A stretch of DNA of 48,386 bases, taken from contig JAUIII010000006.1 in NCBI GenBank assembly GCA_030431855.1, positions 1-48,386 on the forward strand, given 5' to 3'. Under the pieces are notes generated by a model, which saw only the letters and a list, made by a program, of their open reading frames with translations, made no database searches and was not told the DNA's origin. Origin of the DNA: a bacterium (lineage in GTDB: Bacteria > Patescibacteriota > Saccharimonadia > Saccharimonadales > Saccharimonadaceae). Each line of letters opens with the position of its first letter. Within the stretch, counting starts at the first letter, position 1. A program made the position numbers and the translations under genes. Below are positions 28,178 to 42,449 of the stretch, in pieces.

Positions 28178-28410
28178 AGCACATTTCGTGGTTTGTCAGC
28201 GAGTCTGGGGTAGACGCCTCACATGCGAGAGACGACGCGAATTCACTGAAATGGGCCTACCCGAACTGTCGCACGGGCACCGATAAGGAACTATATAGAA
28301 GCAATATCAACTAATACATAGGTCGACATGTGTGCTCTGTTCCACTGCGAGAAGAAAGACAAAGTACGGTAGACGCCCCCTTGAGCAATTGAGGCGGCAG
28401 GAGAACGAAC
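28178..28410 (+). ncRNA. Candidate structured 5' leader RNA or riboswitch of unassigned class
   Basis: ~230-nt non-coding leader after a strong promoter; GGGTAG/CTACCC pairing, 10-nt direct repeat GGTAGACGCC at 28209-28218 and 28368-28377, SD-proximal hairpin 28375-28398. Confidence 0.45.
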
Positions 28411-29632: not shown

Positions 29633-30937
<1,305 letters not shown>

Positions 30938-30945
30938 TCAAAAAC

Positions 30946-30974
30946 TTGCGGATATGTGAAAAACAGCGTATACT
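30946..30974 (+). promoter_or_regulatory. Promoter-like element at the left end of the micro-ORF cassette
   Basis: TTGCGG 30946-30951, 17-nt spacer, TATACT 30969-30974. Confidence 0.5.
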
Positions 30975-31045
30975 TTCGACATACTTTGAGGTAGAGTTAT
31001 GTTTTATAGCTCCTGATAAGTTCTTTGACAAGGTAGTACCAATAA

Positions 31046-31099
31046 CGTGAGGTGTTGCGACAAGGCTATGTAAACGTAGCTTTCTCGCAACACCCCACG
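31046..31099 (+). other. Long imperfect inverted repeat / RNA hairpin A
   Basis: CGTGAGGTGTTGCGA / TCGCAACACCCCACG (one mismatch), inner AAGGCTA/TAGCTTT (one GU). Confidence 0.8.
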
Positions 31100-31133
31100 C
31101 CAACCTACGGAAAATCGGAGAGGAGTGATCTGG

Positions 31134-31226
31134 ATGCCGCACATCCAGAAGGCCTGCCGCGGCAGCACCACCGTGCTGACCGACCTGCAGCTCGTGGCCG
31201 ACGCCGACGCCGGCAAGACCATCTGA
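31134..31226 (+). CDS. Micro-ORF 1 (30 aa): MPHIQKACRGSTTVLTDLQLVADADAGKTI
   Basis: SD GAGAGGAG before ATG 31134; all internal codons end in G or C, unlike neighbouring genes. Confidence 0.45.
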   Translation: MPHIQKACRGSTTVLTDLQLVADADAGKTI

Positions 31227-31254
31227 CCCCCGGTGCGAACTGAGAGGAGCTCCC

Positions 31255-31278
31255 GTGCTCAAGCTGAAGCCCCGTTAA
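31255..31278 (+). CDS. Micro-ORF 2 (7 aa): (M)LKLKPR
   Basis: SD GAGAGGAG before GTG 31255; very short, tentative. Confidence 0.2.
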   Translation: MLKLKPR

Positions 31279-31344
31279 GGGGCGCCGGGCAAGATGTCCC
31301 AAAGGCAAAGGCCACCCCGGCACAACCGTGTTCATTTTCGTGGC

Positions 31345-31389
31345 GGTCCCATGGGGTGACGCAGTTCGTTCTGCGTCACCCCATGGACC
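31345..31389 (+). terminator. Strong hairpin B (probable terminator or processing structure)
   Basis: CATGGGGTGACGCAG / CTGCGTCACCCCATG perfect 15-bp stem, TTCGTT loop, flanking GGTC/GACC with a 1-nt bulge. Confidence 0.65.
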
Positions 31390-31420
31390 GAGGTGCTACC
31401 TCGTCACGATTTGTCATCTC

Positions 31421-31452
31421 AACCACCCCGAGCGAGGGGTGGTTATTGTTTT
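31421..31452 (+). terminator. Rho-independent terminator C
   Basis: AACCACCCC / GGGGTGGTT 9-bp perfect stem with GAGCGA loop, followed by ATTGTTTT. Confidence 0.75.
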
Positions 31453-31505
31453 ATGTGCGACTATGCTATAACTATGAATATACAGCGACGAAAGGAGATG
31501 GCGTC

Positions 31506-31586
31506 ATCAGCGACAAGCTGCGCGATTTCATCGACAGACTGCGGCGCAAGCTGCGGAAACACGCTCCGCAGGTCGGAGTCGCCTAG
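31506..31586 (+). CDS. Micro-ORF 3 (about 26 aa): basic amphipathic peptide SDKLRDFIDRLRRKLRKHAPQVGVA, non-canonical start
   Basis: AAAGGAG at 31491-31497; ATC 31506 at 8-nt spacing or GTC 31503 at 5-nt spacing; codon style changes here. Confidence 0.35.
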   Translation: MSDKLRDFIDRLRRKLRKHAPQVGVA

Positions 31587-31588
31587 CG

Positions 31589-31629
31589 CGCTGGTGGATG
31601 CTGGTCGGTCACCCCAGCATCCACCAGCG
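31589..31629 (+). terminator. Perfect hairpin D (possible terminator)
   Basis: CGCTGGTGGATGCTGG / CCAGCATCCACCAGCG perfect 16-bp stem, 9-nt loop; a T-tract occurs ~15 nt downstream. Confidence 0.6.
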
Positions 31630-31683
31630 TCGGCGCGTCGCTGTATTTTTCATGCCTCGACGCATTTGCTATGATTGATACTA

Positions 31684-33108
31684 ATGAGTCAAACGTTTTT
31701 CTTTTACGACCTTGAAACGAGTGGTATTTCTGGCCGTGACGATAGGATCATGCAGTTTGCTGGGCAGCGAACCGACATGGATTTACAGCCGATAGGCGAT
31801 CCATTCAACGTACTTGTTGCGCTTAACGATGATACGCTGCCGAGCCCTGACGCCATCATGATAACAGGTATTACGCCGCAAAGTACACAGGCTGATGGGT
31901 TGACCGAAGCTCAGTTCGCAAAGCTGCTGATGGAGGAAGTATTTACACCAGATACGATTACAGTTGGGTTTAATAACGTTCGTTTTGATGATGAATTCAT
32001 CAGACATCTGTTGTGGCGCAATTTCCATGACCCCTACGAGTGGGCGTGGAGCGAAGGACGTAGCAGGTGGGATATGCTGGATGTTGTGCGTATGACTAGA
32101 GCCTTACGGCCCGACGGCATCGAGTGGCCAGTTGATAGCGAGGGCAAGGCTACAAATCGGCTTGAACTACTGTCACAGGCAAATGGTTTAGAGCACGCCA
32201 ACGCACACGATGCACTGAGTGATGTTGAGGCGCTCATAGGCGTTGCTCGGCTTGTAAAAACAACGCAACCAAAATTGTTTGAGCATTTATTGAATATGCG
32301 CGACAAAAAGCGTGTACAGAAGCTAGTCAACCTCGACGACAAGCAACCGTTTGTTTACACAAGTGGAAGATTTGACGGCGACTTTCATAAAACTACCGTT
32401 GCTTTTCCGCTTACTGCTGCGCCAAACGGCAATGTTGTCGTGTATGATTTGCGGCATGATCCAAGTGGTTTCGTGAATCTTTCATCTGATGAACTAGCCA
32501 AAAAAGTATTCGCTACGTGGGAAGAGCGAAAAGCTGACGGCTTTGTAAAATTACCCACAAAGATATTGCAGTACAATCGCTGTCCCGCAGTGGCGCCATT
32601 GGGGGTTCTGTCGCAGGATGATGGCTGGCAACGAATTGGACTTGATCTAGAAGCGGTAGAGAATCACAAAAAAATACTCGTTGCATATCCAGCTTTTGCA
32701 GAAAAATTGCGTGGTATCTACGAGAAAACGAGAGAATACAAGCCCAGCAGTAACCCCGAAGCACAGCTGTACGATGGATTTTTGGCAGACCGTGATAAGT
32801 TGCGGGTCGAGTCGGTACGTAATGCTGATGAAAACCAACTCGCAGACTTGCAGCCAGACTTCAGCGATGAGCGCCTTCCTAGTCTCCTGTTGCACTATAA
32901 AGCTCGGAGTTTTCCACGGAGCCTTTCAGAGAGTGAGATAACAGACTGGGAGCAGTGGCGTGCAAGCAGACTGACATCGCAGTTGTCTGGCTTTGCGAAA
33001 GCGTTGCAGAGACTTGCCGTCACGCATCAGACGAATGACGAAAAGCAATTCATTTTGCAAGAGTTACAACTCTGGGCGGAGTCGATTCTGCCTGGTGATG
33101 AAGTCTAG
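31684..33108 (+). CDS. sbcB: Exodeoxyribonuclease I-like (SbcB) DEDD exonuclease
   Basis: TFFFYDLETSGISGRDDRIMQFAGQRTDMDLQPIG, VGFNNVRFDDEFIRHLLWRNF, HDALSDVEALIGVARLV; start 31684 rather than 31675. Confidence 0.88.
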   Translation: MSQTFFFYDLETSGISGRDDRIMQFAGQRTDMDLQPIGDPFNVLVALNDDTLPSPDAIMITGITPQSTQADGLTEAQFAKLLMEEVFTPDTITVGFNNVRFDDEFIRHLLWRNFHDPYEWAWSEGRSRWDMLDVVRMTRALRPDGIEWPVDSEGKATNRLELLSQANGLEHANAHDALSDVEALIGVARLVKTTQPKLFEHLLNMRDKKRVQKLVNLDDKQPFVYTSGRFDGDFHKTTVAFPLTAAPNGNVVVYDLRHDPSGFVNLSSDELAKKVFATWEERKADGFVKLPTKILQYNRCPAVAPLGVLSQDDGWQRIGLDLEAVENHKKILVAYPAFAEKLRGIYEKTREYKPSSNPEAQLYDGFLADRDKLRVESVRNADENQLADLQPDFSDERLPSLLLHYKARSFPRSLSESEITDWEQWRASRLTSQLSGFAKALQRLAVTHQTNDEKQFILQELQLWAESILPGDEV

Positions 33109-42266: not shown

Positions 42267-42347
42267 CTATTGTATATGATTTTTATCGCTAGTGGTTTGG
42301 CTCGTCCAAACGTGTGCGAGTAGAGGAACGCGTATGAGGTCGTTCAT
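42267..42347 (-). CDS. Candidate leader peptide ahead of the ABC exporter pair: MNDLIRVPLLAHVWTSQTTSDKNHIQ
   Basis: 26-aa ORF on minus strand, minus-strand TATACT (42357-42362) 9 nt upstream of its ATG; contains hairpin GTTTGG/CCAAAC. Confidence 0.3.
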   Translation of the reverse strand: MNDLIRVPLLAHVWTSQTTSDKNHIQ

Positions 42348-42449
42348 AGTATTACTAGTATAACACGAGTATATCTTTTTATTATATCAAATTTTGTATA
42401 AAAAGTCAAGTTCTGCTATAATTACCCCTGAAAAAGAGGCACAAAACGT

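Follow-up and report, generated by a model that had tools for sequence, protein, structure and literature searches.

What is encoded between obgE and the exonuclease I gene (exoI) of a Saccharibacteria genome, and in which cell would its small reading frames be read? The stretch of DNA analysed here, referred to as the window, comprises 48,386 nucleotides and is contig C18 of an 830-kb genome, G000.

Two structured transcription units in the obgE-exoI gap

In the window, obgE ends at 30937, the exonuclease I gene starts with an ATG at 31684, and the gap is filled by the region 30941-31683. We found that this region consists of two tandem structured transcription units, unit A (30946-31452) and unit B (31477-31653). 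Unit A is arranged in the order promoter, 5' closing arm, hairpin P2, ORF1, mini-ORF2, hairpin P3, 3' closing arm and terminator. The features of both units are the following:

30946-30974, + strand: sigma-70-type promoter of unit A, TTGCGG (30946-30951)-17-TATACT (30969-30974), from sequence
30982-31452, + strand: predicted structured transcript of unit A (fold z = -9.4; 0 of 100 shuffles equally stable)
31026-31040, + strand: 5' arm of the closing helix P1 (TGACAAGGTAGTACC), paired with 31392-31406 in the minimum free energy (MFE) structure; found at the same relative position in relatives and backed by a partner-swap control
31046-31099, + strand: hairpin P2, directly 3' of the P1 5' arm (inverted repeat I1, 31046-31071/31074-31099; MFE)
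31118-31226, + strand: ORF1 with its Shine-Dalgarno (SD) sequence (GAGAGGAG, 31118-31125), ATG at 31134 and TGA at 31224-31226; peptide MPHIQKACRGSTTVLTDLQLVADADAGKTI
31242-31283, + strand: mini-ORF2 with its SD, from GTG at 31255 to TAA at 31278; seven codons, MLKLKPR
31349-31386, + strand: hairpin P3, a perfect 16-bp stem (31349-31364/31371-31386), just 5' of the P1 3' arm (MFE)
31392-31406, + strand: 3' arm of P1 (GGTGCTACCTCGTCA; MFE), with a compensatory G-C to A-U change relative to the related locus L009
31421-31452, + strand: intrinsic terminator of unit A (inverted repeat 31421-31444)
31477-31653, + strand: unit B, a second, smaller structured unit, with closing helix 31477-31490/31636-31649 (inverted repeat I5) followed by TATTTTT
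31506-31586, + strand: GC-ending frame of unit B (ISDKLRDFIDRLRRKLRKHAPQVGVA), with an SD upstream and without a canonical start codon; doubtful as an ORF
31589-31629, + strand: hairpin of unit B, a perfect 16-bp stem (31589-31604/31614-31629; fold)

Several of these elements had been recognised in the initial annotation, which reported the promoter-like TTGCGG-17-TATACT, seen here at 30946-30974, together with strong inverted repeats and an intrinsic terminator, which are real and lie at 31046-31099, 31349-31386, 31589-31629 and 31421-31444. The two closing helices and the division into two units were absent from it. Its reading of the region as a structured RNA with one or more microproteins agrees with the folds, since none of the shuffles was as stable as unit A or unit B (31478-31653; z = -6.9). 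As for the SD-led peptides it proposed, ORF1 (31134-31226, 30 codons) and mini-ORF2 stand, whereas a third micro-ORF, in unit B, is doubtful because no ATG, GTG or TTG lies in frame near its SD.

The helix P1 brackets ORF1 together with its SD and leaves the SD unoccluded in the MFE structure of the window, and the same holds for another cassette, C14. The stop codon of mini-ORF2 sits in the loop of the hairpin GCCCC-GTTAA-GGGGC. Mini-ORFs of this kind, SD-led, a few codons long and with the stop codon at a hairpin foot or within its loop, were present in 11 of 38 loci, compared with a mean of 0.4 and a maximum of 3 in 100 shuffles, and many of them read like M-K-R(CGA)-H-x-TAG. It is tempting to speculate that a mini-ORF ending at the foot of a hairpin may serve to retain ribosomes on the RNA or to let them go.

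Elsewhere in the window, an RF03005 lysM-TM7 RNA, a known cis-regulatory motif of the Saccharibacteria group, lies at 28255-28403, 5' of a LysM gene, and is also found upstream in most related loci; an RF02918 MDR-NUDIX motif lies at 42286-42350 on the minus strand. The window contains no tRNA or tmRNA that we could find. ARAGORN found no tmRNA gene in about 99% of G000 (all loci), yet smpB is present; a divergent tmRNA may escape ARAGORN.

Conservation of the architecture among relatives

The obgE-exoI gap of other Saccharibacteria takes one of two forms: short and empty (about 20-120 nt), or filled, mostly with about 430-1000 nt in the same layout. Within the genus the gap is filled in 8 of 14 genomes and lacks the cassette in the remaining 6. 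The filled gaps keep their architecture with almost no sequence identity between related Saccharibacteria: promoters at this site are often near-perfect TTGACA-17-TATAAT, with scores up to 12/12, a strong hairpin occupies the place of P2, and the folds of L009 (z = -10.7) and L014 (z = -8.4) extend the strong structure to three species together with the window. Because many independent genomes show this architecture at the same place, flanked by obgE and exoI, mis-assembly or contamination is ruled out as the source of the region.

The closing helix was examined by comparing, for each locus, the pairing of its 5' part with its own 3' part and with the 3' parts of other species. This partner swap was adopted because tandem units confounded a helix test on fixed 5' and 3' windows. 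The own helix was better than all swapped controls in 14 of 24 cassettes (Wilcoxon p = 2e-5). The window and L009, which share the leader CATACTTTGAGGTAGAG, differ in P1 by a compensatory change (GGTAG/CTACC to GATAG/CTATC), and another such change was found in the closing helix of cassette C9 between genomes G000 and G154 (AGATTGC/GCAATCT to AGGTTGC/GCAACCT). An automatic cassette finder, which required a perfect helix, a promoter and a terminator, picked up few genuine cassettes along with several chance hits.

The initial annotation had allowed for a full match to a known non-coding RNA family. No Rfam family fits the region: none of the 4227 covariance models matched at gathering score in 30941-31683 or at the same site of 15 related loci, and a permissive-filter search of the region gave matches at chance level only. 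BLASTN of the region found nothing beyond the locus it came from and short matches to the leader within the genus, with phage matches at chance level.

Could the paired ends point to a self-directed toxin? In mRNAs of the hok and aapA types, the two ends characteristically pair over a long range around small ORFs. A type I toxin-antitoxin-style mRNA, in which a 5'-3' interaction silences a small protein acting on its own cell until the RNA is processed, would share with the cassettes this pairing of the two ends. The cassette helix brackets SD and ORF without covering the SD, in the window and in C14 alike, and in place of short hydrophobic toxins we find ORF1 peptides that are mostly polar, other G000 cassettes encoding 84-281 aa, and a total span from 14 to several hundred residues with many polar or secreted-looking products. 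Such an mRNA would also leave the codon and stop usage described below unexplained, and we regard this reading as quite improbable.

The contents of the gap vary. In L028, L033 and L034, ORF1 is replaced by secreted-looking, cysteine-containing proteins of 106-146 aa, so that the slot looks exchangeable. In L024 (5296-6988) the gap holds a gene for a leucine-rich surface protein with ordinary codon usage and no RNA cassette.

Codon and stop usage of the cassette ORFs

Every degenerate third position in ORF1 of the window is G or C (GC1/2/3 = 0.66/0.48/1.00), compared with a mean GC3 of 0.463 (sd 0.073) in the genes of G000 itself, and 18 bits favour actinobacterial over own codon usage. The GC-ending codons which the initial annotation noted in its first and third micro-ORFs are confirmed. 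Taken together, 18 ORFs at the obgE-exoI site (812 codons) have GC1/2/3 of 0.54/0.58/0.88. The bias reflects codon choice and not composition, since the ORF of L029 combines low GC1 and GC2 with full GC3 (0.31/0.25/1.00). Codon frequencies of the ORFs at this site correlate at r = 0.92 with the Rhodococcus plasmid pRHL1 and at 0.29 with the own genome, the actinobacterial reference being 32 ORFs from 50 kb of this one plasmid. The resemblance to high-GC Actinobacteria proposed from the window alone is supported, with r of 0.92-0.94 against 0.29-0.33 over the ORF sets compared here. Optimisation for the cell's own ribosomes is an unlikely cause of the GC-ending codons, because its translation-related genes and groEL (GC3 0.44-0.46) show no preference for them.

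Stop codons follow the same pattern, and they played no part in choosing the ORFs. TGA ends 15 of 17 ORFs at the obgE-exoI site, compared with a fraction of 0.117 in own genes (p = 1e-12), and 28 of 33 in the pooled set, compared with 12%. In a scan of 80 obgE loci (689 kb), conducted outside ordinary genes, all ten GC3 outliers lay in the obgE-exoI gap and all ten ended in TGA (compared with 10.9%); the positional enrichment is partly built in because ordinary genes were masked, L014, L015 and L016 are related, and the L036 hit runs antisense to the true ORF1. Between L015 and L016, ORF1 differs by whole-codon indels at 79% protein identity, with obgE 98% identical.

Are the ORFs then a by-product of RNA structure? 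That the region is a purely structural non-coding RNA, whose GC-rich stems create ORFs by chance, would be in keeping with its strong folding and with the absence of ORF1 in the cultured strain TM7i and several other loci. Stems would not account for a GC3 of 0.88 next to GC1 and GC2 values of 0.54 and 0.58, nor for triplet indels, the bias towards TGA and protein-level conservation in the cassette families. We consider this alternative, already disfavoured, to be highly improbable.

About 15 other GC3 outliers were found in G000 outside the obgE-exoI site (84-281 aa, plus one of 54), mostly in monocistronic units with a promoter, an SD and a GC-rich terminal hairpin. Including ORF1, 13 of 16 end in TGA, a stop used by a fraction of 0.117 of own genes (p = 3e-10). 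The codon usage of this set correlates at r = 0.94 with pRHL1 and 0.33 with the own genome, a match that is partly circular for ORFs picked by GC3. Only about 6 of the 16 have an evident closing helix within 120 nt, perfect helices of 16, 13 and 12 bp included. A second genome, G200, has 26 outliers, with TGA in 20 (0.155 in its own genes). The outlier proteins include secreted or lipoprotein-like and small basic types. Locus L163 of G200 (about 733-739 kb) contains tandem host-codon units, encoding a surface-anchored-looking protein of 763 aa and further secreted-looking ones. At G200:715204-716679 lies a gene for a membrane protein that by eye resembles purine permeases (GC3 0.91, TGA, no obvious promoter); either ordinary gene acquisition or a role directed at the host could account for it. 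Some G200 outliers, such as this one and a Nudix-like one (also by eye), may simply be acquired genes.

The tested cassette ORFs had no match in Pfam, NCBIfam or PHROGs, and those searched had no homologue in plasmids, phages or viral contigs. A by-eye assignment of the C24 protein as a sortase was withdrawn, as the Pfam model places the two sortases of G000 elsewhere. The predicted structure of the C14 family was of moderate quality (pTM 0.66) and matched nothing in the PDB, and that of C9 was poor.

Orthologues of these ORFs between G000 and a further genome, G154, are 76% (C9), 79% (C14) and 66% (C4) identical, and their GC3 stays at 0.85-0.94. Across the C4 family GC3 is 0.88, 0.94, 0.78 and 0.78 at identities down to 34%, and in the C14 family, whose proteins have many invariant residues in common, it is 0.86, 0.85 and 0.79 at 35%. 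No amelioration over time is visible in this range. The region had been suggested to be recently acquired; this found no support, as the cassette site is common across much of the family and orthologues at 34-35% identity retain the bias. At four-fold sites the G000 and G154 cassette ORFs diverge by 0.12-0.36, compared with 0.34-0.72 for neighbouring or ordinary genes, which reflects either strong synonymous constraint or exchange of cassettes between species.

Old host-derived genes are the main rival explanation for this usage. The ORFs would come from Actinobacteria, their phages or other mobile elements, stand behind Saccharibacteria promoters in structured cassettes and be translated by the epibiont itself, with the foreign codons a relic or renewed by repeated capture. 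Codons and stops that match an actinobacterial replicon are what such an origin would leave, and a four-fold divergence at or below that of the neighbours is what more recent exchange would give; cultivated Saccharibacteria are also naturally competent (PMC10633639). This account has to explain the orphan status of the proteins among the families, plasmids, phages and viral contigs searched, the fixed sites and the absent amelioration. Orthologous cassettes agree in promoter, leader and position, with C9 adjoining smpB in both genomes, and capture would be an odd way to obtain an orphan of 30 codons that has an SD of its own and sits at a single fixed site. We consider this account rather unlikely.

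Messenger RNAs for the host?

The cassettes are monocistronic, with a sigma-70-type promoter and an intrinsic terminator, and many have an end-pairing helix whose two arms are each followed inwards by a stable hairpin. The SD-led ORF between the arms uses high-GC actinobacterial codons and TGA, and this is kept across species. The transcription signals are those of the epibiont and the translation signals those of high-GC Actinobacteria. Most cultivated Saccharibacteria grow on Actinobacteria (PMC10633639). The usage of codons and stops suggests, short of proof, that these are parasite mRNAs read by the host, and host-type usage is what an exported mRNA would be expected to carry.

Judged from sequence, the region could well belong to a class of "host-dialect" structured mRNAs, made by the epibiont and optimised for translation in its actinobacterial host, although we hold this only tentatively. 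With slightly more reserve, Saccharibacteria may make a whole repertoire of end-protected mRNAs translated by actinobacterial ribosomes, which would amount to an mRNA-effector system between bacteria. The cassette RNAs would be transcribed in the epibiont, their closing helix and hairpins would protect both ends, and after delivery to the host cell they would be translated into small orphan proteins acting on the host; host-directed peptides from the region itself are possible. An RNA made in the epibiont, read in the host and paired at its ends for protection is the simplest single account. A candidate route of delivery would be the type IV secretion system (T4SS), which is essential but atypical in a cultivated relative, with no recognisable relaxase or coupling protein (PMC10633639), and whose role in Saccharibacteria has been called completely unknown (PMC11665869). 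The clearest counter-evidence to the exported-mRNA account comes from TM7i, whose complete genome has one such RNA, no GC-rich ORF in it and no GC3 outlier above 0.8, so that the coding form would be lineage-specific or lost there.

The cassettes might alternatively pass to the host as DNA and be both transcribed and translated there. Promoters of the TTGACA/TATAAT type could work in Actinobacteria, which counts for DNA delivery; the conserved long-range pairing, a feature of RNA, counts against it. The T4SS resembles Gram-positive conjugative systems, yet the one studied is without recognisable relaxase and coupling protein (both points from PMC10633639), and we consider delivery as DNA improbable.

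If the codon dialect marks where an RNA is read, an uncultured parasite's set of effectors would be legible from its genome sequence alone, and translatable mRNA trafficking between bacterial cells would be indicated; our literature search found nothing on such cassettes or such trafficking. Even under the rival explanations, third-position GC, TGA stops and end pairing together pick orphan host-interaction candidates genome-wide, which is relevant since the means by which Saccharibacteria take over their hosts are unknown.

How do the cassettes compare with known systems? With type I toxin-antitoxin mRNAs (hok, aapA1) they share a stable structured mRNA, ends paired around small ORFs, and a strong promoter and terminator; they differ in the free SD and in diverse ORFs with host-like codons and TGA. 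With large ornate RNAs (OLE, GOLLD, ROOL, raiA) they share a length of several hundred nucleotides, extensive structure and, at the obgE-exoI site, a single locus per genome; they differ in having no Rfam match, hardly conserved sequence and translated-looking ORFs inside. Horizontally acquired foreign-codon genes also stand out from their genome in GC3 and stop usage, but the cassette bias is kept between distant orthologues, the proteins are orphans and the structured cassette is stereotyped. Finally, the cassettes resemble T4SS effectors, whether protein or T-DNA, in that a host-dependent bacterium encodes orphan proteins which evolve fast and are presumed to act on the host, and in that a cultivated relative has a T4SS and depends on it (PMC10633639). 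The difference is that in the cassettes it is the coding sequence that is adapted to host translation, an adaptation for which a protein effector would have no use.
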